NCBI GenBank assembly: GCA_019912395.1
Contig: JAIOIH010000062.1
Coordinates: 1 to 64,000, forward strand
Length of the DNA: 64,000 nucleotides
Direction of reading: 5' to 3'
Source of the DNA: Flavobacteriales bacterium
Lineage (GTDB): Bacteria > Bacteroidota > Bacteroidia > Flavobacteriales_F > PHOS-HE28
The translations under genes and the position numbers were made by a program. The stretch's first letter is position 1, and every line of letters begins with the position of its first letter. Of the stretch, positions 164 through 13,009 are shown piece after piece. The notes beneath the pieces are model-generated. The model saw nothing but the letters and a program-made list of their open reading frames with translations. It did not search any database and was not told the DNA's origin.

Positions 164-1351
164 TCAGATCGCGCCCAACAGATCATAAGGTGGTTCCGCG
201 TTGTAGATCTCCTCATAGCGGCCCGGCCCAAGGTCGTGCAGGAACTGGTGCATGCCACCGGATACGGCCGTGCGCAGGTCGTACTGGTCGGCTGTGAACG
301 CTAAGCGCACGGTTGCTTCCAGTTCCGCCCGTGTGGGTTGTTCAAACCCCTCGCCGTGTTCAGTGAATCGCCCGCTGCTCCGGTAGAACCAATTATCTTC
401 CCGTACCAGGTCCGCTCCCTCACGGATCAATACGTTAAAGGTACTTCCCCAGCGATGGAGGTTGCGGATATCCATGGAACAATGGGTCTGGTCCTCCCGG
501 AAGTGGACGTAGCGCGTGTGCAGCACTTCGGCCTCGATAGGGCATGGGTCGTCCATTTCATCCACATCAAGCACGAACTGCTCGTCCCATTCCTCGTCGT
601 AGTACCTGCTGGTGCGCATGGTGGCCACGTTCACCACGGGAAACCGCTCTTCCAAGGAATGGATGATGTTGCGGATGGCTTGCAGGAAGCGCACCAGGTT
701 GGTGTGGGCACGGGTGCGGTCACCAAGGGTGAGTTCCGCCTGCCTGCCCGGTATGCTGATCCGAACGGAAAGCGCATCTTCCTCTCCAACAAGGAACTCC
801 ATGTTCAATTGGTTGCGGTTCAACCATTGAAACTCGAACAGGTCAAAGATGCTCACCTGACGCTGGGGGCCGTCAACATACAAGCGTGGTATGTGCGGGG
901 CATCCACCAAACTGGTGAATAGGACCATTGCTTCCAAGTGTGCGCGTGCCAGATCGTTGCCTTCATTCGGGATATGGGCATACTCCAGTTCGCTGCAATA
1001 GCCGAGCACGTTTTCGACATCGTACACGAGTGCATGCCTCCACTGTGTCTTGCCGGTAGGGGGCCGCTCCTGCACTTTCATCAGGTCGATGGTGTCCTGT
1101 ATGGCCTGTGCCTTCACCTTGGTGGTTTCCCAGTCCATGTGGAACCGGTAGCCCTGCTCCACCTCGGTAATGGTGTAGGTGATCGGCCCGGGCTTGTTGG
1201 TCCAGTTCATGATGCCCACCGCATGCAACAGGAAGTTGGTGAGCGCATCCCGGTGTGCCTCCTTCGCCTTCATGTGCGTTACCGCTACCGTGCCCCGGTT
1301 GATCTCGGCGTACACGCGCCAGCTTACATCGTTGTAGGTATAGGTGTTCAT
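164..1351 (-). CDS. hypothetical protein, 395 aa
   Basis: I do not recognise this protein. It is a soluble-looking, acidic protein with no signal peptide, membrane segment or obvious catalytic motif. The frame stays open upstream to 1525, but the upstream part translates the GC-rich repeat (Pro/Gly/Arg-rich, low quality). I therefore chose the ATG at 1349-1351, which begins MNTYTYNDVSWRVYAEINRG. It stands alone, transcribed away from the restriction gene, and is bracketed by inverted copies of the same repeat (66-143 and 1373-1430). Its place at the edge of a defence-rich stretch makes a role in that island possible, but nothing in the sequence shows it. Confidence 0.75.
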   Translation of the reverse strand: MNTYTYNDVSWRVYAEINRGTVAVTHMKAKEAHRDALTNFLLHAVGIMNWTNKPGPITYTITEVEQGYRFHMDWETTKVKAQAIQDTIDLMKVQERPPTGKTQWRHALVYDVENVLGYCSELEYAHIPNEGNDLARAHLEAMVLFTSLVDAPHIPRLYVDGPQRQVSIFDLFEFQWLNRNQLNMEFLVGEEDALSVRISIPGRQAELTLGDRTRAHTNLVRFLQAIRNIIHSLEERFPVVNVATMRTSRYYDEEWDEQFVLDVDEMDDPCPIEAEVLHTRYVHFREDQTHCSMDIRNLHRWGSTFNVLIREGADLVREDNWFYRSSGRFTEHGEGFEQPTRAELEATVRLAFTADQYDLRTAVSGGMHQFLHDLGPGRYEEIYNAEPPYDLLGAI

Positions 1352-1372
1352 TTTCGGGTGCTGTTGTCCTTT

Positions 1373-1430
1373 CCTCATCCCGGCGCTCGGGTGTTTCCCG
1401 AGTGCCCGCGGTCCCCTCCGCCACCGGCGG
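1373..1430 (-). repeat. GC-rich dispersed repeat, copy B
   Basis: On the plus strand it reads CTCATCCCGGCGCTCGGG, then TGTTTCCCGAGTGCCCGCG, then TCCCCTCCGCC. It is close to copy C (1705-1760) in the same orientation and inverted relative to copy A. Confidence 0.75.
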
Positions 1431-1704
1431 CCTCCGGGCCCCGCCCCGCAGGGCCACGCCAAGAAATACCTCCCGGCAAGTAGCGGACCCTGCGCTGGGA
1501 CGGGGCTTTGACAGCCCCACGGCAACGGAACCGGACACCAGGAACGGCTATCCGATAAAGAAAATGCCCGTCCTTGACTGATGCCGGTACATAACAGACG
1601 GTCTTACGCGGCTGTAAAGCATCACGCCCGAACGGGCACTACAAAGCTATGCCAGTATAAGGAATACGCAACTTCCAACAGCGGGTAGAGCGCCTCAAGA
1701 AGGT

Positions 1705-1760
1705 CTCTCATCCCGGCCCTCGGCTGTTTCCCGCGTGCCCGCGATCCCCTCCGCCTCCGG
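1705..1760 (-). repeat. GC-rich dispersed repeat, copy C
   Basis: It is nearly the same as copy B: CTCATCCCGGCCCTCGGC, then TGTTTCCCGCGTGCCCGCG, then ATCCCCTCCGCC. It lies about 70 bp before the direct repeat D1. Confidence 0.75.
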
Positions 1761-1826
1761 TCCTTCCGCTTTGGGCGGATCTCGGTTCAGGCGGTTCCAG
1801 GCCGCTTGGCTACGCGGCGCATGCTG

Positions 1827-2026
1827 GCTGCGGGCTTGGGCGTATGCAAAGGTTAAGGACATTTGGTGGTTGAAACTCGTGGATGCAGGCGATGAATGTA
1901 TGCTCCGCAAGTCCCTACTTTGAGCCGCAACGCCTGCCACTTTTTATAGCAACCCTTCCACCTGTTCATGCGCGCCGACTATTCCTCCATCTCCAAAGCT
2001 GTCCGCCACTTGCAGCAATTGCGGCC
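1827..2026 (+). repeat. direct repeat D, copy 1 (leader plus first 20 codons of the type IIG gene)
   Basis: About 200 bp that recur at 6417-6617 with a handful of substitutions and one single-base indel just before the start codon. The repeat holds 141 bp of leader and codons 1-20 of the type IIG gene. Similarity stops at GCGGCC (2021-2026). Confidence 0.95.
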
Positions 2027-5000
2027 TACCAAGGAGGAGTTCAACCTCTTCCGCAGGAACCTTGGGCAGCTTATCAGCAAGACGGAAGAGGTGCGCAAGA
2101 CCAGTTCCAGCGGTGCGCTGGAAGAGACCGAGAAGGGTTTACTGAAGGATTTTCTGCGCGACACCTTCTATAAGCACCTGAGCGTGGGCAACCTCAATTA
2201 CCGGGGGAACACCGGGGCCGACCTCACCATCCGCAGCGCGAAGAAGAACACCTTGGTGCTGTTCGAGTGCAAGGCCGGGAACAACCCGGAGGAGATGCCC
2301 ACGCCCGAGAAGCTTTTGGGCAAGGCCTTTTTGGAAGCGGTGGCCTACTACTGCTTCGAGAAGGATGTGCTGCACAACGACCACATGAAGCACGTGGTGG
2401 TCACCAACGTCCGCGAATGGTACGTGTTCGATGCGGCGGACTTCCGGGCCGCCACCCACGGCAAGGCGAAGGTCCGCGATGCCTTCAAAAGCTGGAACAA
2501 GGGGAATTGGGACAACAGTTCCACCGCCGCGCTGCACAAGCGCATCGCCGAACTGCTCAGCGACGGGGACGATGTGCTCCACGGCGTGCATGTGGACCTC
2601 TGGTCGTTCAAGAAGTACTTGGACCGCGACGATGAACAGGCGCTCACCGAGCTGCTGAAGCTCTACCGTTTCCTAAGCCCCGGCTATCTGCTGAAGGAAG
2701 GCACCGGCAAGGACAACAACACGCTCAACAAAGGCTTTTACAATGAGCTGCTGCACATCCTTGGCCTGCATGAGAGCAAGGAGAAGGGCGTGAAGCGGAT
2801 CAAACGGCTGCCCGAGGATAAGCGCCATCAAGGCATGCTTATCGAGAACACCATCGTGCGCCTGAAGAACGACGGATGCCTCGCCCGGCTGGAGCATAAG
2901 GAGCAGTATGGGGATACGGAGGACGAGCAGCTCTTCGCCGTCGCCATGGAACTGTGCATCACGTGGCTGGACCGCATCCTCTTCCTCAAGTTGCTGGAAG
3001 CCCAACTGCTGCGCTATCACGATGGCGACCGACTGCACGCCTTCCTCGCGCCCACGGATGAAGGGCAGCAATACGATTACCTGAACACGCTCTTCTTCGA
3101 TGTGATGGCCCGCGAGAACAGCGAGCGCGAACCGGAAGTGCGCAAGCAGTTCGGCCATGTGCCCTACCTCAACAGCACGCTCTTCGAACCCAGCGAACTG
3201 GAAGGCCGCACCATGCGCATCAACGGCCTGCGGGACGGCTTGCGCATACCGCTGCACCCCAAAAGCATCCTGATCCAGCGGAAGCTGTACACGCAGGACC
3301 TGCAAGCATTGGACTATCTGCTCCGCTTTTTGGACACCTATGATTTCGGCAGCACGCCCGGTGAAGTTTTTACCGATGACGACCGACCCCTGATCACCGC
3401 CAGCGTGCTCGGGCTCATCTTCGAGAAGCTGAACGGATACAAGGACGGCAGCTTCTACACGCCCGGTTTCATCACCATGTACATGTGCGGCGAAACGCTG
3501 CGCCCCGCCGTGGTGCAGCGCTACAACGAGCGCTTCGGGCTTGCGCTCTCCGGCTTCGAGGCGCTGCGCAACCATTGCGCCAAGCTGAACGAGCACGAAG
3601 AGATCGCCGCCGCCGAGGCCGTGGTCGATAGCATACGGGTCTGCGACCCGGCCGTGGGCAGCGGCCACTTCCTGGTCAGTGCGCTCAACGAACTGCTCTG
3701 CATCAAGAGCGACCTGGGCCTGCTTACCGATGTGGAAGGCAAACCCCTGCACGGCTGGACGGTGAGCTTGGCGAACGACGAGATCACCGTAACGGACCGC
3801 ACCACGGACGCGCCTTTCAAATACTTGGTACCGCCGGACGGCAAGCCCATACCGGCGGAGATGCAACGGGTGCAACGCGCCCTCTTCGAGCAAAAGCGCA
3901 AGCTGATCGAAGGCTGCCTCTTCGGCGTGGACATCAACCCCAACAGCGTGAAGATCTGCCGCCTCCGCCTGTGGATCGAACTGCTGAAGAACGCCTACTA
4001 CATCAGCCCCCCGCTTCCCGGGAGAGGGGCGGGGGGTGAGGGCGACTTGCGCACCCTGCCGAACATCGACATCAACATCAAGCGCGGCAACTCGCTCTAC
4101 TCCCGCTTCAACCTGCATGACAACATCGAGCAGATCATGCAGCGCACCAGCTATACGGCGGAGCAGTACCGGGGCTTCGTGCAGGACTACAAGGGGGCCA
4201 GCAACCGCGAAGAGCGGGCCGGCCTCAAGACCATCCTGCAAGGCATCGAGGCGCAATTCCTGGCCTACTCCCAGAACCGGGACCCGCGCGTGCTACGGCG
4301 CAACACCCTGGTGAACGAACTGGAAAAACTGACCGGGAGCCTCTTTGGCGGCGGGCAGGGCTACAGCACGGCAGCGGCGAAAGCAAAGGCCAAGAAGCGC
4401 ATCGGCCTGCTGGAGAAAAACATCAATGCCGTAAGCGAAGAACTGACGCGCGAAATGGGCGGCCGGGCCTATGGCGGCGCCTTTGAATGGCGCTACGCCT
4501 TCCCGGAAGTGCTGGACGACAACGGCGATTTCCGCGGCTTCGATGTGGTGATCGGCAACCCGCCCTATATCCGGCAGGAGGAGTTGAAGGACTTCAAACC
4601 CTTCCTGAAACAACACTTTGAGAAGACCTATGCCAGCACGGCGGACCTCTTCATCTACTTCATCCAGCTCGGGCACCAGCTGCTGGCCCCCGATGGTCGG
4701 TTCTGCTACATCGTGGCGAACAAATGGATGCGTGCAGGCTACGGGCGGAATCTCCGCGAATGGCTGGGGCAGCACACCATTGAGCAATTGATCGACTTCG
4801 GCGACCTGCCCGTGTTCGAGGAGGCCACCACCTATCCGTGCATCCTGCTCACGAGAAACAAGAAGCCGGAAAAGACGCACACGGTGCAAGCCTTATCCAT
4901 GCCGGAACTGCATACCGAGGACCTGCGTGCCTTTGTGAAGGCGCATGCCCTGGAGATCCCACAAACGGAATTGGTGCGGAACGATTACCGGATCAGTGGT

Positions 5001-5843
5001 GCCGAAGCGAACGCGGTGCTGGACAAGATCAAGCGTGCTGGGGTACCATTGGGTGAATACCTCAACGGCAAAGTCTATTGGGGGATCAAGACCGGGTTGA
5101 ATCAGGCTTTTGTCATCAACAAAGCAACGCGGGACAGGATAATCAAGGAAGATCCCAAGTGTGCAGCGGTGATCAAGCTCTTCTTCGAGGGGAAGCACGT
5201 GAAACGATATGCGGATACTTCTTCGGGCAAATACCTGATTCTCTTCAAGAGAGGTTCTACACGTGAGCTGCTCGGCGTGGGTTTGTCCGAGGAAGAAGCA
5301 TTTGCGCAGATGAATGAGCAGTACCCTTCGGTGTTCAAATGGCTCCTCCGCTTTGAGGAAGATGCCCGCAAGCGATCGGACCAAGGTGAATATTGGTGGG
5401 AGTTAAGAGCATGTGACTACTACGATGCTTTTGAAACACCGCATATCGTAACTCCCAGCTTTGCCTTGCACCCACTACTAACGTTGGATAATCATGCCTC
5501 CTACTCCAACAATAAAACGACGATCATCGGATCATCTGATAAATGGTTACTGGCCATCTTGAACGCGAAGGTGACCGACTATTGGATGCTGAACATCTCC
5601 AACAAGATCCGTGGCGGCTGGTTGGACTTCGAACCACGCTATCTCACCTTGATCCCGATCGCCGAACCCAGCGAAGCGGAAAAGCTGCGGCTGGATGAAC
5701 TGGTCACGCAGCGGATGGGCTTGGCAACCGGTACTGCTGAAGCCAAGGCATTGGAGCAGGCGATCGATGCGGTGGTGTATGGGGTGTATGGGCTTACGGC
5801 GGAGGAGGTGGGGGTTGTGGAGGGGGTGGCTTTGAAACCCTGA
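1968..5843 (+). CDS. type IIG restriction-modification enzyme (Eco57I-like, DUF7149 family)
   Basis: One 1291-aa chain that should both methylate and cut DNA. The N-terminal nuclease has a PD-(D/E)XK signature: D85 in GADLTI, then E100-C-K102. The adenine methyltransferase core shows motif I DPAVGSGHFL (from residue 560) and motif IV NPPY (864-867). After about residue 870 comes a TaqI-like target-recognition part. The length fits the family. Residues 681-692 (PPLPGRGAGGEG) come from a REP-like DNA element inserted in frame in a loop before LPNIDINIKRGNS. Its leader and first 20 codons lie in repeat D. Its last 51 codons also recur in the minigene at 6559-6774. BREX PglX is less likely because a nuclease motif is present and there are no other brx genes. 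Confidence 0.93.
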   Translation: MRADYSSISKAVRHLQQLRPTKEEFNLFRRNLGQLISKTEEVRKTSSSGALEETEKGLLKDFLRDTFYKHLSVGNLNYRGNTGADLTIRSAKKNTLVLFECKAGNNPEEMPTPEKLLGKAFLEAVAYYCFEKDVLHNDHMKHVVVTNVREWYVFDAADFRAATHGKAKVRDAFKSWNKGNWDNSSTAALHKRIAELLSDGDDVLHGVHVDLWSFKKYLDRDDEQALTELLKLYRFLSPGYLLKEGTGKDNNTLNKGFYNELLHILGLHESKEKGVKRIKRLPEDKRHQGMLIENTIVRLKNDGCLARLEHKEQYGDTEDEQLFAVAMELCITWLDRILFLKLLEAQLLRYHDGDRLHAFLAPTDEGQQYDYLNTLFFDVMARENSEREPEVRKQFGHVPYLNSTLFEPSELEGRTMRINGLRDGLRIPLHPKSILIQRKLYTQDLQALDYLLRFLDTYDFGSTPGEVFTDDDRPLITASVLGLIFEKLNGYKDGSFYTPGFITMYMCGETLRPAVVQRYNERFGLALSGFEALRNHCAKLNEHEEIAAAEAVVDSIRVCDPAVGSGHFLVSALNELLCIKSDLGLLTDVEGKPLHGWTVSLANDEITVTDRTTDAPFKYLVPPDGKPIPAEMQRVQRALFEQKRKLIEGCLFGVDINPNSVKICRLRLWIELLKNAYYISPPLPGRGAGGEGDLRTLPNIDINIKRGNSLYSRFNLHDNIEQIMQRTSYTAEQYRGFVQDYKGASNREERAGLKTILQGIEAQFLAYSQNRDPRVLRRNTLVNELEKLTGSLFGGGQGYSTAAAKAKAKKRIGLLEKNINAVSEELTREMGGRAYGGAFEWRYAFPEVLDDNGDFRGFDVVIGNPPYIRQEELKDFKPFLKQHFEKTYASTADLFIYFIQLGHQLLAPDGRFCYIVANKWMRAGYGRNLREWLGQHTIEQLIDFGDLPVFEEATTYPCILLTRNKKPEKTHTVQALSMPELHTEDLRAFVKAHALEIPQTELVRNDYRISGAEANAVLDKIKRAGVPLGEYLNGKVYWGIKTGLNQAFVINKATRDRIIKEDPKCAAVIKLFFEGKHVKRYADTSSGKYLILFKRGSTRELLGVGLSEEEAFAQMNEQYPSVFKWLLRFEEDARKRSDQGEYWWELRACDYYDAFETPHIVTPSFALHPLLTLDNHASYSNNKTTIIGSSDKWLLAILNAKVTDYWMLNISNKIRGGWLDFEPRYLTLIPIAEPSEAEKLRLDELVTQRMGLATGTAEAKALEQAIDAVVYGVYGLTAEEVGVVEGVALKP
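4007..4043 (+). repeat. REP-like GC-rich element inserted in frame in the type IIG gene
   Basis: The DNA reads CCCCCCGCTTCCCGGGAGAG followed by GGGCGGGGGGTGAGGGC. It is a partial palindrome (CTTCCCGGGAG) of a type I recall as dispersed intergenic repeats in many bacteria. Here it is translated as PPLPGRGAGGEG. The host protein continues in frame, so the insertion is tolerated at a loop. Confidence 0.6.
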
Positions 5844-6416
5844 GTGCAACTATGTAACGTCTCTGACCATTTCAACCCATAGGTGTTCAATGGCAATACC
5901 TGGATCGCCTATGTAACGAGCGTGCTGCGAATGCAGCCGAAGCACTCCATTCAGTTTCTTCCGGTCTGCCGAACATGTAAGGCACTCTTCCACGCTCCAA
6001 TGTTGCCCCTGCTTCCGCCAGTGTTCCCGGCCATACCGGGAACTGCGTTCCTGAATGAAAAGGCCGGGGTCACTGGTGGGGCTACACTCCCCAGAGCTCC
6101 CGTACGTTTGGTACCGAGGAAGTGCTCTTCGGCGCATTCGGCTCAGGCGCCTTTAGGCTCTATTGGCTCAAGGGGCTTCAGGCCTCTTCATCCATTCGGA
6201 CTTTTCCGGCCCCTTTGGCTTCTTAGGCCCTTTAGGCAATTAGCGCATTGGGCGATGGGCATACAGCGCGTTCGCCTCAGCCGGCCGGAGGCCGATGGGT
6301 GGCAGGCCCTCGCGAAATACGCGAACGCTGGGATGGGCGGGCCATCGCAAGTCGTGCTGCTCCAGTACTTCCTCCAAATCCATACAGCCCCTGACGGCCA
6401 AAGCTTCATACAGTGC
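5844..6416. other. intergenic spacer with word-mosaic repeat
   Basis: The spacer lies between the type IIG gene and the second copy of repeat D. A 95-codon frame on the minus strand (5850-6137) and a plus frame from 5883 cross it. Neither resembles a known family and I do not call them. From about 6124 the sequence becomes a mosaic of words such as TTCGGC, CTTTAGGC and TTCAGGCC, related in reverse complement to the mosaic at 13086-13345. Confidence 0.55.
6124..6260 (-). repeat. degenerate word-mosaic repeat, minus orientation
   Basis: The reverse complement reads as runs of GGCCTGAAGCC, GAGCCTAAAGGC and GCCTGAGCCGAATGCGCC. The same words, reshuffled, fill 13086-13345 on the plus strand. It is not a clean tandem array. 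Confidence 0.6.
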
Positions 6417-6617
6417 GCTGCGGGCTTGGGCGTATGCAAAGGTTAAGGACATTTGGTGGTTGAAACTCGTGGATGCAGGCGACGAATATGTGCTCCGCAA
6501 GTCCCTACTTTGAGCCGCAACGCCTGCCACTTTTTATAGCAACCCTTCCACCCTTTCCATGCGCGCCGAGAATTCCTCCATTTCCAAGGCTGTCCGCCAC
6601 TTGCAGCAATTGCGGCC
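6417..6617 (+). repeat. direct repeat D, copy 2
   Basis: Second copy of the leader and first 20 codons of the type IIG gene (first copy 1827-2026). It ends at GCGGCC, where it joins at CCCAGCG directly to a copy of the gene's last 51 codons. The two partners share only CC at the join. Confidence 0.95.
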
Positions 6618-6774
6618 CAGCGAAGCGGAAAAGCTGCGGCTGGATGAACTGGTCACGCAGCGGATGGGCGTGGAAACCGGTACTGCTGAAGCCAAGGCAT
6701 TGGAGCAGGCGATCGATGCGGTGGTGTTTGGGTTGTATGGGCTGACGGATGGGGAGGTTGGGGTGGTGGGGTGA
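6559..6774 (+). pseudogene. internally deleted copy of the type IIG gene (71 codons)
   Basis: Codons 1-20 (MRAENSSISKAVRHLQQLRP) match the start of the enzyme at 1968. Codons 21-71 (from SEAEKLRLDELVTQRMG) match its C-terminus from SEAEKLRL (nt 5670 onward). The join is in frame and removes about 1200 codons, including the nuclease, methyltransferase and recognition parts. The two copies differ at several positions, so the duplication is not recent. The gene keeps a start, a stop and the same leader as the full gene, so a 71-aa product is possible. I call it a remnant. A small functional protein is the alternative. Confidence 0.85.
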
Positions 6775-6814
6775 ACCACTTCCGGTCAAGAGGAGTATTG
6801 CATGGGAATCCAGG

Positions 6815-8569
6815 CTAATTGAATCGGAGGCCGAAGAGTCCGCCATCTTCGCTTGCATCGGTCAATCGCGAATTCAGCACATATTTTTCGAGGTCAAACG
6901 AGCCTGAAGCCTCTTTGTACAGATCGTCCGAGTTCATGGTGACGATATACTGAAAGCCTAATTCTTCGGCAGTCCTTGCTCCCACTTCCAAAGCATGCAC
7001 CACTTGTCGCCCATCCACACCATCAAATAAATGGCTATCATGGATGAGGAAGCCAGGCCCGATGCCGCGCTTCGCACATAAACGCATGAGCATCATGTCG
7101 AAGCAATAGATGTGCATGTTTTTAATGCCTACGCTTCGGCCACTGGGTACCGTGATCTTGAATTGAGGTCCATTGTCGGACACATCAATATTCAAATGCC
7201 CGGCCCCGGCCCGTTCGTATAGCTGTCGAGAGGTCTCCTCAAAAGCAAGGATGGCTTCATCCACGAATTCCTTGCGCTCATTCAGGTCGTTCCGTAGGCG
7301 CTGTACCAGATTTTGTCGCTCGATGTGCAACTCGGTCTTGCCGCTTTCCAGTCTTTCAGCCACCTGCATCCGTTGTTTGAGCGATTCAACCTCGGTTTCC
7401 CGCTTGACCAGTTCGGAGCGCAATTCATTGTAGTGTTCCAGCGCCCCATGAGTCTGAAGAAGCCTCATGAGTTCAGCGCGTCGTGAATCCTTGATCGCTT
7501 GCTCCCGTTCACGTTTCTGGATTCTCTGATCTGCAGCGGCCTTCTCGCTGCTCAGATAATCCCGGCGATTGGAAATGACCGAATCATGGAAGGCCTTCAC
7601 CTCTTCGAATCGACGCAGCGCCGCTTCTGCGATGATAACCCCTGCCTCGTTGTACAACCGACCGAGGTCATTCGCCGGGGGAGGTGTTTCTCGCTTGAGG
7701 GCTTCGGTCAGGTCAAGGATCAGTTTGCGGTCAATGGTATTGGCATCCGCCAACTCATTGATCTCCCGTGTCAATCGCGAGGCCTCCCGTTCGGTTTGCT
7801 CGTACTGCGGAAGGACTTGGAAACTGGCCAGTTGCTTCCGGAGTTTTGATACCTCTGCCTCTGCCACTACTACCGTGGTACGCAGATCGGCCCTGGTACC
7901 TAGGACTTGCCCGAGCACACTGTGGCTTCCTGTGGCCTTCGCCAATGCCTTGAGGTCCTTTTCTCGTGCCCGTACCTCCTGCCATTCCCCAGCGATCGCC
8001 CAATCGAGTCCGAGCAGATAGCTCAGAGATAACTGATACTGCCAAGGCTGAACCTGTTCCGCGAACTTTTCGAACGAACCGAATCCTTTCTCCGCGACCC
8101 TTCTCGCAAAGTAGGGGAGCAATGTTCGGAACGATGGTTGAGGGTGGTGGGATCCTTCTTTCGGAGACAGGCCGAACATTATCGTGCCCAAGATCTCTTT
8201 CCAAGCCTCGTTCGTCAGCCCTCCATCCTTCACCGCGGGTCTGGTCGGCCATGCCTTGTTTTCCTCTGCGTTCACGTAAACCTTGGAGGGAGCATCGCCT
8301 GAGCGCTTCACCGTGATTTGCTGTCCGCCTAGATCGAAGGTCATCTCGAACTGTTGATGGATCAAGGCTTCGGTCTTGAATAGAGATTGCGAATCGACAT
8401 TCGCTCCAAGCAGGAAATGGACGATTTCCACCAAGCTGCTCTTACCAGCCCCATTCCGTGTGGATTTATCGGTAGACCTCGTCGTCTTGTCAGCAAGCAG
8501 GATGTTCAAACCCGGCTTGAAGCTCTGAGGCTTGAAGCTTGGCAGGCTGCTATGGATGCTGTGGATCAC
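6815..8569 (-). CDS. ABC-three-component system ATPase (DUF2326-type, SMC/RecN-like)
   Basis: A 584-aa ABC ATPase of the coiled-coil kind found in ABC-3C conflict systems. The Walker A stretch NGAGKSS sits at residues 39-45 (K43). A long central region (about 200-450) is rich in charged heptad-like sequence, as expected for a coiled coil. Near the C-terminus, FLIHDSHLFDGVD fits the Walker B and following D-loop. The start overlaps the stop of the middle-component gene by 4 bp (ATGA), so translation is probably coupled. In the family, the ATPase is thought to sense invasion and license the effector. That role is inferred here from gene order. Confidence 0.88.
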   Translation of the reverse strand: MIHSIHSSLPSFKPQSFKPGLNILLADKTTRSTDKSTRNGAGKSSLVEIVHFLLGANVDSQSLFKTEALIHQQFEMTFDLGGQQITVKRSGDAPSKVYVNAEENKAWPTRPAVKDGGLTNEAWKEILGTIMFGLSPKEGSHHPQPSFRTLLPYFARRVAEKGFGSFEKFAEQVQPWQYQLSLSYLLGLDWAIAGEWQEVRAREKDLKALAKATGSHSVLGQVLGTRADLRTTVVVAEAEVSKLRKQLASFQVLPQYEQTEREASRLTREINELADANTIDRKLILDLTEALKRETPPPANDLGRLYNEAGVIIAEAALRRFEEVKAFHDSVISNRRDYLSSEKAAADQRIQKREREQAIKDSRRAELMRLLQTHGALEHYNELRSELVKRETEVESLKQRMQVAERLESGKTELHIERQNLVQRLRNDLNERKEFVDEAILAFEETSRQLYERAGAGHLNIDVSDNGPQFKITVPSGRSVGIKNMHIYCFDMMLMRLCAKRGIGPGFLIHDSHLFDGVDGRQVVHALEVGARTAEELGFQYIVTMNSDDLYKEASGSFDLEKYVLNSRLTDASEDGGLFGLRFN

Positions 8570-8811
8570 GGCTTGCGCTTTGAAAGTAGTCCGCGTTCAA
8601 GATCGATCGCGTTCATTGCGAATAGGAGGTCTAACGCCAGTACGAACCAGTCGTAGGTAATGGTGGGTGCATTGGGTATGCTCCTTCGCGCCATTGACAG
8701 TTCGGTCCAAACGCGCGATACGGTCATGGGTTGGTCCAACAAACCAAGAATACCCCCGCCAACGGAAAGGAGAGCACGGTCTTGGTGGATGCGTTTGGTT
8801 GGAAGTACCAT
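8566..8811 (-). CDS. ABC-three-component system middle component
   Basis: A small 81-aa protein, starting MVLPTKRIHQDRALLSVGGG, that resembles the short winged-helix-like middle components of ABC-3C systems (closest in my memory to middle component 6). These have the typical layout: a short N-terminal start, ILGLLDQP, then a C-terminal ALDLLFAMNAI. I chose the ATG at 8809-8811 because it leaves 16 bp after the effector stop. The longer frame from 8877 would run into the effector gene. It probably bridges effector and ATPase. Confidence 0.8.
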   Translation of the reverse strand: MVLPTKRIHQDRALLSVGGGILGLLDQPMTVSRVWTELSMARRSIPNAPTITYDWFVLALDLLFAMNAIDLERGLLSKRKP

Positions 8812-8827
8812 GGAATATTTGGATCGG

Positions 8828-9733
8828 TCACGGATTGGGGGCCTCAAAGATCTCACATTGTTCGAAAAAATAGGCAAGTACTGCTAGTATCGCCATCTGC
8901 TGTGCCGGGGTTGAACTACCCGACCACCCGGCCCACTCCTGAAGCATTCCGAAGATATCGTTTGGGCTGGGCTTGGGTTGAGTATCCCGCAATTCTTGGT
9001 ATCGGTTTCTGAACGAGGTTGCGACACGATCACCGAAGGGCGGATCAGGATGGCCATCGAAGTACTTTCCGACCATGTCGGCTTTCTCCATGCCAGCTTT
9101 CAGTAGACAGACTACGTTGTGTGATAGCTTGTTCGCCTCGATCTTTTCTGGGGGAACGATCATCACCGTCGCATTCTCATCAACCATGTCGCTCTGGGCG
9201 ATATGTTCCAGCACGGCTTCCAGATCCGCCAACCTGAGGTTAAGCTTGGCCTCATTCGTGGGCGCATAACCATACATCGACCGTTTGGCATCCAGACCAA
9301 GTTTGCTGAACTCTTGCCGCAATTCCTCCCAGCCCCACAGTTGTATGGTCCGTCCAGAATTTTCGCGCTCAAGTCCATTGATCACTTGTTGGATCGGAGC
9401 TGGAATGGCTTCTCCGTTGTATACGAAGGCCCACGTATCGAAGGCCTTACCCCAATGGACCAAGGCACCTTTGAAATCTTCTTCGATCTTCCGCTTTGCC
9501 TCCGCTGCGCTCATTTCATTCGGGGCATATACTTGGAACAAGGTACGTGTGGATGGGAGGTAGCCATCATTCTTCATGTCGCCCACATTACCCCATGGCG
9601 AACAAGGACGGAAATCTCTTGGATAGCCTTTGCCCATTACAGCCTCGAACAGCTTCTGGAACGCATTGCCCCGGGATCGGAGGAAGTCGTTCTCAAACCT
9701 CAGTTCGAAGTATGCATATGCAATCTGGTCCAT
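8828..9733 (-). CDS. ABC-three-component system effector (putative nuclease-like N-terminus plus ABC-3C C-terminal domain)
   Basis: A 301-aa first gene of the three-gene set. The N-terminal stretch RGNAFQKLFEAVMGKGYPRD, later DMKNDGY and then FQVYAP, resembles a restriction-endonuclease-like fold. The usual (D/E)XK triad is not clear: the core strand reads FQVY. The nuclease may be degenerate, or may be another fold. The C-terminal half (from about residue 190) should be the system-specific domain that docks to the middle component. Order and spacing (effector, 16 bp, middle component, 4-bp overlap, ATPase) match the typical operon. Confidence 0.75.
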   Translation of the reverse strand: MDQIAYAYFELRFENDFLRSRGNAFQKLFEAVMGKGYPRDFRPCSPWGNVGDMKNDGYLPSTRTLFQVYAPNEMSAAEAKRKIEEDFKGALVHWGKAFDTWAFVYNGEAIPAPIQQVINGLERENSGRTIQLWGWEELRQEFSKLGLDAKRSMYGYAPTNEAKLNLRLADLEAVLEHIAQSDMVDENATVMIVPPEKIEANKLSHNVVCLLKAGMEKADMVGKYFDGHPDPPFGDRVATSFRNRYQELRDTQPKPSPNDIFGMLQEWAGWSGSSTPAQQMAILAVLAYFFEQCEIFEAPNP

Positions 9734-9832
9734 CTCCGGCCCGGCATAGATAACGATGAATCAAGGAAACCAAGACAATCGGATAAGGGGGGTGTATGTG
9801 AGAAGCGAGATTGCTTCACCACGAAAACACTC

Positions 9833-10201
9833 CTACAAATACAAATACGACTGCGGCGGTTTCAGATTGTAGTGGTCCTTCAGGGACCTGGGCTTGCGGT
9901 AGCGCTTGGTGGCCTTGATGTGGATGGCATAGCCCACCTCCTTGGAGCCGAAGTAGGCCATGAAATAGTCCTTGCTGATCCCGGCGCCTTCGCGGGTGCG
10001 GTTCCACAGTTCCTCGGGCGGATGCTCCAATATGCTCTCGATCTCGAATTCACCGATCACCTTCTGCACGGGTGATGAAGCGTACACCACCACCCTTGAT
10101 ATTTCGGGCCGCTTAAAGATCATGCGGCGAAACTCGTAGTGCTTGGAGCCATCGAAGATCTTCGACGCAAACTTCGGCTTAATGGACATGAGTACCTTCA
10201 T
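9833..10201 (-). CDS. ASCH-domain protein
   Basis: A 122-aa protein of the ASCH (PUA-like fold) family. Diagnostic stretches are MKVLMSIKPKFASKIFDGSK, then YEFRR, VVVYASSPVQKVIGEFEIE and GYAIHIK. ASCH domains are thought to bind RNA or modified nucleic acid and are common in conflict and regulatory genes. Its ATG overlaps the stop of the upstream PIN-fusion gene by 4 bp (ATGA), so the two are very probably co-translated. The partner also seems to end in a PUA-like domain. Confidence 0.88.
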   Translation of the reverse strand: MKVLMSIKPKFASKIFDGSKHYEFRRMIFKRPEISRVVVYASSPVQKVIGEFEIESILEHPPEELWNRTREGAGISKDYFMAYFGSKEVGYAIHIKATKRYRKPRSLKDHYNLKPPQSYLYL

Positions 10202-11685
10202 AGCTTGCCCAAACGTACCAGTTCCACAAAGGCGTTCATCGGCAGTTCGTTGATGGTTCTCACGATGTCCATGTTAGGAAATATGCCCGCGTCCAAAAGG
10301 GAACGAAGGTTCTGGCGGTGTTTCAGCGAGTATGCATAGAGGAAGTTGATGACGAAGGGCTTGTAGCTGCCGAACCGTTCCCAGTATTCCTTGAGCTCCT
10401 CCACCTCCAACGCTGATTTCTTTCGACAGAGCTTCCGCAAGGTATCGAGATCGGCGACGGGGTTCACTACGTTCTCCACGATACCGATGGTGCTCACCAC
10501 ACCTTTGTGGATTCCACCCGTGCGATAGAACACAAGGATGTCGCCCGTAGATAGATCCCGATGCGGGGAGTGCGAGACGTAGGCCTTGCTTATGGCGTTA
10601 CGGTGCGGCTCGCCATCAACGAACGCATCAGCCTTCTCCGTTCGCAGGATGGAATCGGGGAATAGTTCAGTGTGGTACTCCGGTTTGATCGGGACGACCC
10701 AAACCCGAGCCGCCTTTGACACTTTGGGGTAAGTCTCCTTGGGGTGTGATGCATTAGCATCAACCTTCATGGGGCGAACAAATACAGCTTCACCTGTAGC
10801 CTTGGCCCCATGCCGGACGAACCCCCAGGAAGTAAGCAGCTCGATCAATCGAAGCTGCTCCGGCGATCGTTCGAAGATGGTCACGTAGATCTCGTCCACC
10901 TTGGCTTCCCGCGCATTGTCGAAGGCGATCTTCAGGAAGCGCTCGCCCATGCGCAGGCCATCAGCCACCACCTTGAGCGTTCCGATCTTCAATCGCTTCG
11001 CCGGTGCGAGAACAGGGGTGATATCCGAGTAGTTCTCGCCCCTGTCCTCCGTCTTCAGGAACAGGAAACCGCGAACGGAATCTTCTTTCGTGTAGACGTA
11101 GGCATGATCGTTCGCACGCTTCTGAAACCACCTGTCGAACGGAGGATCCACGTAATCCGCACGGAATGAGTCGAAGAAAGCATCTTGAACATCCAGCTCC
11201 CCGAACAATCGCTTCCGAACGGAAAGGACTTTGTAGTCAATGAGGTCCGGATGGTCCGTGATCGCCTGCTCCAGAAAGCGCTCGATGGTGAGTACCTGCA
11301 GCTCAATGCCCAGCGCACATGCCTTAGCGTGGATCTTTCGGTCCTCGGTGATCAGTACATCCACCCGGCCAACGAACACCTCGTTGATGAGCTTGGTATC
11401 CTCCTGGTCGTTCGCGCCCTTATCCATCGCGGCACAAACACGCTTGACCTCATCGGCCAATGGCGCAACACTTAACAGCTTGGTATAGCTATCCAGTTTG
11501 ATGGACATGGCCTGGACGACCTTTATATCCCTGTGGTGCCCGATCTCAGCGACCGTTACCGGATGCACGCACTTCTCGTACCTCAGTCTATCGAGCCAAC
11601 GGTACAATACGCCCACATCGCCATGGACCGCGGGCGTGACGGCCTCACGATGGATCACGATGTTGGTGTCGAGCAGGGCTTTCAT
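10198..11685 (-). CDS. PIN-domain / GNAT / PUA-like (EVE-like) fusion protein
   Basis: A 495-aa fusion. Residues 1-130 are a PIN ribonuclease fold: MKALLDTNIVIH (D6), E47 in VTVAEIGHH, D93/D96 in ANDQEDTKLI, and D115 in LITEDRKIHA. Together these make a plausible complete acidic active site. Residues about 190-310 resemble a GNAT acetyltransferase (MGERFLKIAF, then YVTIF, then LLTSWGFVRHGAK). From about 328 a PUA-like or EVE-like domain follows (ARVWVVPIKPEYH, then DLSTGDILVFYRTGG, then VSTIGIVENVV). It is followed by an ASCH gene with a 4-bp overlap. A nuclease joined to a nucleic-acid reader suggests an RNA-cutting conflict protein. Target and trigger are unknown. Confidence 0.8.
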   Translation of the reverse strand: MKALLDTNIVIHREAVTPAVHGDVGVLYRWLDRLRYEKCVHPVTVAEIGHHRDIKVVQAMSIKLDSYTKLLSVAPLADEVKRVCAAMDKGANDQEDTKLINEVFVGRVDVLITEDRKIHAKACALGIELQVLTIERFLEQAITDHPDLIDYKVLSVRKRLFGELDVQDAFFDSFRADYVDPPFDRWFQKRANDHAYVYTKEDSVRGFLFLKTEDRGENYSDITPVLAPAKRLKIGTLKVVADGLRMGERFLKIAFDNAREAKVDEIYVTIFERSPEQLRLIELLTSWGFVRHGAKATGEAVFVRPMKVDANASHPKETYPKVSKAARVWVVPIKPEYHTELFPDSILRTEKADAFVDGEPHRNAISKAYVSHSPHRDLSTGDILVFYRTGGIHKGVVSTIGIVENVVNPVADLDTLRKLCRKKSALEVEELKEYWERFGSYKPFVINFLYAYSLKHRQNLRSLLDAGIFPNMDIVRTINELPMNAFVELVRLGKL

Positions 11686-12037
11686 GAAGCGGTGGAAATC
11701 ATGGTTGTCGGGAAATACGGCAAAGTGGTGCTGACAATATAGTGCCCTTCACGCAGCCAGCCCTATGTTGTTCAATTCCTATCCCGATGCCCAATTACCC
11801 CCATTCTGGCACGAGCGTCCGATGCATATCGCTCCGATACCTATCGGAGCACCCTCGTGCCTTTCCGCATTAGCAAGGTTTCTACTTTCGCATCCAATGG
11901 CGGCCCTGCATCGGTGTGAACCTCCGGAGGGCTGAAAGGCTTGAAAGGGGTCTGCTCCACGCAACGAAGGTCGCCATTGCTATGTCTTGGCGCTCCATCT
12001 ATCTTGCCCGAACAAACCTATCAGAAGATCCGCGCCC
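11686..12037. other. intergenic gap with a nested palindrome
   Basis: A 352-bp divergent gap between the PIN fusion (minus) and the CpXC gene (plus). It holds a cruciform-like element (11808-11861) and TACTTTCG at about 11883, a near match to the Bacteroidota -7 box. I see no gene. Confidence 0.6.
11808..11861. repeat. nested inverted repeat (cruciform-like)
   Basis: The outer arms are GGCACGAG (11808-11815) and CTCGTGCC (11854-11861). The inner arms are GCTCCGAT (11831-11838) and ATCGGAGC (11843-11850) around a 4-base loop. No poly-T follows, so it is not an obvious terminator. Confidence 0.75.
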
Positions 12038-12469
12038 ATGACCATGAAAACAAGGAAGGAGCTGGCTTGCCCCCAATGCAGCCACAAGCAGGAGGTGATG
12101 GTGTGGTCCACAGTGAACAGCATGGACAAGGAAGCCAGCCAATTGGTGCGCGACATGAAGCTCAACATCTTCCACTGCGAGGCTTGCGGAAGTGATGCGT
12201 TCATCGATGAGAACGTTCTCTACCACGATATGGAACACAAGTACTTGGTGCAGTACGTGAGCCTGGGGGCGTTCGGCAACGAAGACTTCTACAAGCGCAT
12301 CACCAAACGTGGCACCATGATCATGGATCCAATAAGTACCGGCATTCTGGAGCTAACGGAAGGAGACTATTTCAAAAACCCGCACTACGTGTTCTCCACC
12401 CGCGAGATGGCGGCCTACATCGTTTTTCGGGAACTCTGCGCGGAGTGGGGAGCGGATGATCCCTCCTAA
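12038..12469 (+). CDS. CpXC-domain zinc-ribbon protein
   Basis: A 143-aa protein beginning MTMKTRKELACPQCSHKQEV. The CPQC at 11-14 and the second pair C47/C50 (FHCEACGS) fit a CpXC zinc ribbon. The family's role is not known, though members often sit near defence or regulatory genes. An upstream ATG at 11987 is possible but adds a poor N-terminus. The ATG at 12044 (MKTRK) is equally possible. It is followed 9 bp later by the HIRAN gene, so the two are probably one transcript. Confidence 0.82.
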   Translation: MTMKTRKELACPQCSHKQEVMVWSTVNSMDKEASQLVRDMKLNIFHCEACGSDAFIDENVLYHDMEHKYLVQYVSLGAFGNEDFYKRITKRGTMIMDPISTGILELTEGDYFKNPHYVFSTREMAAYIVFRELCAEWGADDPS

Positions 12470-12478
12470 CTTCCCCCC

Positions 12479-13009
12479 ATGGACCGCCCCACCTTCCTGA
12501 AAACCATGCTGGGCAGCTCCGCCTTGCTCACCCTACCTCCGTGGGCCATGCTCAACGCCAAGGAACAGGACCGCTTGGCGTGGACGCAGGACTGCCACGG
12601 CGTCTTCGTCTTCGATGCCTTTGTAAAGGGCTTCCGCTTCCACAAGGGGCCGGAGCTGTTGCCGCGCATCAAGGCCGAGGACCCCTTGGACCTGGTGCGC
12701 GAGCACGACAATGAACACGACCCCAATGCCGTGGCCGTGTATTGGGAAGGCCAGAAACTGGGCTACCTGCCCATGGGCGAGAACCTCTGCCTGGCCTATA
12801 TGCTGGACTATGGCCTGTTGCTGGAGGCCGAGGTGGTGTACACCGCGCCGGAGGAGGAGCCGTGGGCGCAATGCTTCATCGCGGTACACCTGTTGATGCC
12901 GAGCAACCCTTCGTTCGATGCGTACATCACGGACTACATGGACCGTCCCGATGCGGGCTACAAGCGCCGACCCGAGTACGGGGGCGAAGAGGGTGAGCCG
13001 GGTTTGTGA
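12479..13009 (+). CDS. HIRAN-domain protein with N-terminal signal-like segment
   Basis: A 176-aa protein. The first 25 residues (MDRPTFLKTMLGSSALLTLP onward) look like a signal or anchor sequence without twin arginines. Residues about 45-115 are a HIRAN domain, with the hallmark REHDNEHDPNAVAVYWEG then KLGYLP. HIRAN domains in helicases bind 3' ends of single-stranded DNA. Here the domain stands alone and may be exported, which is unusual for a DNA binder. The C-terminus is acidic and low in order. It is paired with the CpXC gene, 9 bp upstream. Confidence 0.8.
   Translation: MDRPTFLKTMLGSSALLTLPPWAMLNAKEQDRLAWTQDCHGVFVFDAFVKGFRFHKGPELLPRIKAEDPLDLVREHDNEHDPNAVAVYWEGQKLGYLPMGENLCLAYMLDYGLLLEAEVVYTAPEEEPWAQCFIAVHLLMPSNPSFDAYITDYMDRPDAGYKRRPEYGGEEGEPGL

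Follow-up and report, generated by a model that had tools for sequence, protein, structure and literature searches.

The window analysed here is a 64,000-nt stretch of Flavobacteriales DNA in which the gene starting at 1968 encodes a predicted type IIG restriction-methyltransferase (Table 1). PADLOC model PDLC03612 covers residues 12-1286 of the product (E 1.2e-258), and Pfam recognizes DUF7149, DUF7814, an Eco57I methylase and a TaqI_C-like specificity domain. The gene thus has the composition expected of a full-length type IIG family member, namely a single chain with a methylase core and a specificity domain. The closest relative that we found, locus L032 (contig C5 of genome G022, JAHBUL010000013.1), comes from a Flavobacteriales draft genome. 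It has the same leader in front of its one full-length type IIG gene and lacks a minigene of the kind described below. Compared with L032, the intact gene of the window contains a short in-frame insertion, SPPLPGRGAGGEG (3990-4045), matching a dispersed repeat that occurs twice on contig C6 of the window's own genome, as well as in L142 and L143. When viral contigs were scanned for the enzyme, one distant relative was recovered.

From its gene content, the type IIG locus is a predicted defence island. Its right-hand part contains DUF2326 and CTD10 proteins as one pair (PADLOC candidate PDC-M68) and ASCH and PDC-M11A proteins as another. The first pair (6815-9733; ABC-3C-like proteins, PDC-M68A/B) lies next to the minigene, and its DUF2326 protein had no match among 44 genus-mates. 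On a larger scale, the interval 164-12469 extends from a gene of unknown function (395-453 aa) to a CpXC-like gene. Both G004 and G032 have counterparts of the left neighbour (164-1525) and of the CpXC-like gene (11987-12469), the CpXC-like match being one judged by eye from translations and unscored. The interval looks like a variable defence hotspot, because these two genomes carry other genes within it. An empty site was sought through the neighbouring genes: the left one occurred in three genus-mates, with other genes adjoining it, and the right one in none, and no genus-mate was found that has the same left and right neighbours but no type IIG gene.

Downstream of the intact gene, both of its ends recur as a minigene. 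Positions 1827-2026, comprising the leader and 20 codons, return at 6417-6617 with 95% identity (BLAST, E about 1e-86), and 5667-5820, corresponding to codons 1234-1284, return at 6616-6769 with 94% identity (E about 1e-61); both matches are far above chance level. A repeat search delivered the pairs 1827-1967/6417-6557 (96%), 1961-2038/6552-6629 and 5667-5820/6616-6769 (94%), and within this genome the leader is present at two copies only. The spacings of the N-terminal and C-terminal repeats, 4591 and 949 nt, differ by 3642 nt, so the joint is in frame, for which the chance is one in three, and the minigene lacks 1214 parental codons. These values bear out the initial annotation, which had described the repeated block, its in-frame joining to C-terminal codons, a loss of about 1200 codons and a joint with only CC in common. 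The sequence check agrees on the last point as well: TTGCGGCC/TACC and GAACCC/AGCG yield TTGCGGCCCAGCG.

The resulting frame (6559-6774) runs undisrupted from ATG to TGA over 71 codons, and searches of Pfam and PADLOC gave no domain or family match for it. Start codon, leader and open frame have been preserved, as had been noted before, but the stop codon is not homologous to that of the enzyme: homology ends at 6769/5820, and the last residues before the stop are VVG in the minigene, EGVALKP in the intact gene and EGK in L032. The neat joining of both gene ends is an unusual feature of the minigene. The assembly is a draft of 87 contigs, but it is very unlikely that a misjoined repeat produced this arrangement, given that the copies are set apart by about 20 differing sites and one indel and have different flanks on both sides. 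In addition, the flank of the minigene matches the independent assembly of the relative.

Table 1. Features of the type IIG locus and of the minigene downstream of it (window coordinates).
Feature	Position	Strand	Basis
Intact-gene leader, with a left part that doubles as the predicted start of a divergent small gene (12 codons, minus strand), cut at 1827	1827-1967	+	
Intact predicted type IIG restriction-methyltransferase gene, 1291 aa	1968-5843	+	Pfam, PADLOC
Specificity (TRD) segment of the intact gene, differing from that of the nearest relative	4572-5751	+	blastn against L032
Spacer separating the intact gene and the relic; contains dispersed genomic repeats (contigs C27, C68)	5844-6334		
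Codons of the divergent small gene; putative ancestral flank, relic copy only	6335-6416	-	86.6% identity to L032 7778-7859
Relic leader	6417-6558	+	96-98% identity to 1827-1967
Relic type IIG codons 1 to about 20	6559-6617	+	
Putative deletion joint; 2-nt overlap CC, 3642 nt (1214 codons) gone, in frame	6616-6617		
Last 51 codons of the relic, with its own stop; the final 38 homologous nt resemble a different tail allele	6616-6774	+	

The upstream flanks distinguish the two copies. In L032, a whole divergent gene of 94 codons (7608-7892, minus strand) is located directly upstream of the type IIG leader. At the minigene, homology to this ancestral locus reaches left past 6417 to 6335, and residues 1-42 of the divergent protein match that of L032 (76%); at the intact gene, the match ends at 1827, 12 codons into the divergent gene. 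The small gene is truncated at both sites in the window. In L032, the sequence flanking the full-length gene corresponds to 6335-6416 of the window; the minigene therefore occupies the older upstream context, which the intact gene has lost. The block that the initial annotation called a leader does recur as such, but its left part also encodes the start of the divergent minus-strand gene; this shared leader is predicted to carry the promoter side and the first 12 codons of the latter.

The divergent small gene (6335-6450, minus strand, in the window; 7608-7892 in L032) belongs to a family of about 95-104 aa, whose relatives in genus-mates are found near a SIR2-like gene, a likely defence gene (L144), and beside a CpXC-like gene (L141, L142). 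Its product may be a regulator, perhaps of the winged-helix type: a low-confidence structure model bears weak resemblance to winged-helix regulators, none of it significant, and searches of Pfam, PADLOC and NCBIfam yielded no usable family.

A head-to-tail duplication leaves the old upstream flank with the left copy. The tandem duplication with internal deletion proposed in the initial annotation holds in outline, but a plain tandem event does not fit, because it is the minigene, the right copy, and not the intact gene that keeps the old flank. The proposal can be adapted by assuming that the whole unit was duplicated in tandem, that the right copy suffered an internal deletion and that the left flank was replaced later. 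The direct orientation, the close spacing and the matching specificity end of the two copies are all in line with this order, and the dispersed repeats that occupy the region left of 1827 could mark the later rearrangement. On the other hand, an extra event is needed, since the right copy has the ancestral flank and the left copy does not, and the sequences from 5844 and from 6775 onwards are dissimilar, that is, the repeat search detected no shared downstream flank. We therefore regard this version as possible, though doubtful.

Changes between the copies are unevenly distributed. Polarised with L032 over 201 nt of upstream and N-terminal sequence, nine changes fall on the minigene, one on the intact gene and seven on L032 (9 versus 1, two-sided binomial P = 0.02), with the limitation that this three-sequence polarisation has no independent root and that the minigene-side excess partly assumes L032 to be a valid outgroup. 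Over 70 codons, the minigene and the intact gene are separated by 8.5 nonsynonymous and 5.5 synonymous changes (omega about 0.5, dS about 0.11), compared with 22.5 and 50.5 over 860 codons between the intact gene and L032 (omega about 0.13). The changes in the minigene thus show no preference for silent positions. The intact gene and its nearest-relative homologue have a dS of about 0.09, and the similarity of the two dS values supports the earlier view that the event is not recent. The difference between the two patterns of change is borderline in Fisher's test (P 0.03-0.07, depending on rounding). When compared with simulated neutral drift of an open frame, the omega of the minigene gave P = 0.20 on only 14 changed sites; purifying selection between the copies is thus undetectable, while 14 changed codons provide little power against weak selection.

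The initial annotation had raised the idea of a retained 71-aa product with a regulatory or decoy role, and a decoy, a regulator or a partner of the enzyme's helical tail are conceivable given that it has an ATG, a stop codon, a leader and an open frame. A single-sequence AlphaFold model predicts three helices (pLDDT 71.5), but helices are expected from any fragment of a helical tail. Likewise, the genus-mate G006, whose type IIG gene is on contig C258, carries the tail of that gene alone on contig C303 in a stand-alone ORF of 64 codons (L113, 387-581), yet this ORF has a foreign start and only the tail in common with the minigene. With purifying selection undetectable, a 9-to-1 excess of change on the minigene, no Pfam or PADLOC family and no counterpart in the 44 genus-mates, we consider a functional 71-aa protein very improbable. 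The open frame, preserved despite a dS of about 0.11, does count against a relic. Gene remnants usually have a disrupted frame, yet disruption is not required, and in simulations 14 random changes leave this frame open with a chance of 0.52; it follows that there is nothing to explain beyond the one-in-three joint and moderate luck.

The initial annotation also raised the possibility of the same minigene beside type IIG genes in relatives; none was present in the 44 other genomes of the genus. The matches obtained there are ordinary full-length 3' ends or short chance hits, the leader in G022 being the sole match of another kind, and the idea of a recurring minigene was rejected. Stray type IIG 3' ends, loose or decayed, do occur close to such genes at several loci: 121 bp at 78% identity in L061, 82 bp at 90% behind an inserted abortive-infection-like ORF in L083, 52 bp at 77% in frame behind another ORF in L069, 45 bp at 85% in L040, and several decayed tail copies together with a dispersed repeat in L062. 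In L083, the ORF in question (11668-12519) is abortive-infection-alpha-like and lies between two copies of the 82-bp 3' end. Overall, the stray tails are heterogeneous and mostly decayed, and relics of exchange and insertion account for them better than a conserved small protein. Special conservation of the 3' end at the DNA level, as a recombination site, was considered and discarded: in 71 aligned genes, codon choice is no more conserved in the tail (mean z 2.18) than elsewhere (2.00).

The intact gene is itself a mosaic with respect to L032. In a blastn comparison, 1827-4571 match at 96.3% and 5752-5825 at 94.6%, and the specificity segments in between are unrelated; the specificity domain has been exchanged in one lineage, either that of the window or that of L032. 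The segment of the window has no close DNA match in the 44 genus-mates, with the sole exception of 85 nt in the minigene, where 6616-6700 are 98% identical to 5667-5751, the end of the segment. Behind it, the tails diverge. Eight of the ten differences between the minigene and the intact gene fall into the final 38 nt (scan P 0.005). Ahead of the last nine bases, the tails of the intact gene and of G017/L018 differ at four positions, and the minigene has the L018 base at each of them. Positions 5752-5777 are identical in all three sequences, and a crossover in this stretch would explain the tail pattern of the minigene. The clustering of the tail mismatches suggests recombination among gene ends, at the place where specificity domains have been swapped as well.

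These observations allow for another version of events, in which the minigene is what is left of a donor. The intact gene would have taken its specificity domain from a second, tandem type IIG gene of different specificity, with boundaries near 4571 and within 5752-5777, and the second gene would have been gutted then or later. The shared backbone and tail around a different specificity segment, the presence of the end of this segment next to a different tail in the minigene, the clustered tail differences, the four sites shared with G017/L018 and the stretch common to all three sequences in which the crossover could lie would all be accommodated. The same mosaic would result from a domain swap in L032, or from recombination confined to the tail of the relic; the tail comparison is based on few sites, and no other full-length gene with this specificity segment was found in the genomes of the genus. 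We consider this version unlikely. It and the tandem duplication are both versions of the origin of the relic, and our confidence in them overlaps with that in the relic itself and does not sum to one.

We thus favour, as the likely explanation, a second type IIG restriction-modification locus that was cut by an internal deletion and of which the minigene is the decayed rest. The island would formerly have held two related copies of a unit consisting of the divergent small gene, a shared promoter region and the type IIG gene. One copy would have been shortened by 1214 codons when an illegitimate deletion joined sequences overlapping by 2 nt and, by chance, preserved the frame; the divergent gene next to it would have been truncated to 42 codons. 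In the other copy, the enzyme would have survived, but not the flank beyond 1827. An open frame of 71 codons would then be due to the chance in-frame deletion and the small number of later mutations. Since the leader and promoter region of the relic are nearly intact, it is probably transcribed whenever the intact gene is. There is no sign of a small working protein, and the minigene most likely represents a fossil left by the turnover of genes in a defence island.

Remnants of restriction genes are already known in kind (PMC3077401), as is, as far as the work of Nobusato et al. (2000) is described in PMC1643837, the insertion of restriction genes with long target duplications. In Helicobacter pylori 26695, HP1404, of which only the N-terminal end remains, and HP1383, a central remnant, are broken restriction-modification paralogues (PMC3077401). 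Like the minigene, they illustrate that fragments of restriction-modification genes persist as relics of rearrangement. Unlike these, the minigene retains both gene ends, fused in frame, and has an intact copy as its immediate neighbour, and the enzyme here is a single-chain type IIG protein, whereas the H. pylori relics belong to the type I S subunit. In insertion with long target duplication, for which an association with restriction-modification genes has been described (Nobusato et al., 2000, as presented in PMC1643837 and PMC3874152), direct repeats of gene parts flank the inserted genes. In the features covered by these accounts, L083 has such an appearance; for the window locus, an empty site with one repeat copy, which would be the matching counterpart, was not found among the genus-mates. 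The mosaic of the intact gene and L032, with a common backbone and tail around different specificity segments, also resembles DOMO, in which target recognition domains are exchanged through recombination at conserved flanks (PMC3077401). It differs from DOMO in that the exchange affects the C-terminal TaqI_C-like domain of a single-chain enzyme; a role of the minigene in it would be conjectural.

The minigene, the stray tail in L083 and the tail ORF in G006 could also be scars of one recurrent process of specificity exchange, which we put forward as a speculative and rather improbable proposal. A single-chain type IIG enzyme would change its specificity when its gene recombines with a neighbouring second copy, the exchange taking place within the short conserved 3' end, and two joined ends would be all that remains of the donor. 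The minigene itself mainly serves as a clear illustration of the copying, recombination and loss of restriction genes in defence islands. If stray ends were indeed systematic scars of specificity exchange, past changes in type IIG specificity would become readable from genome sequence.
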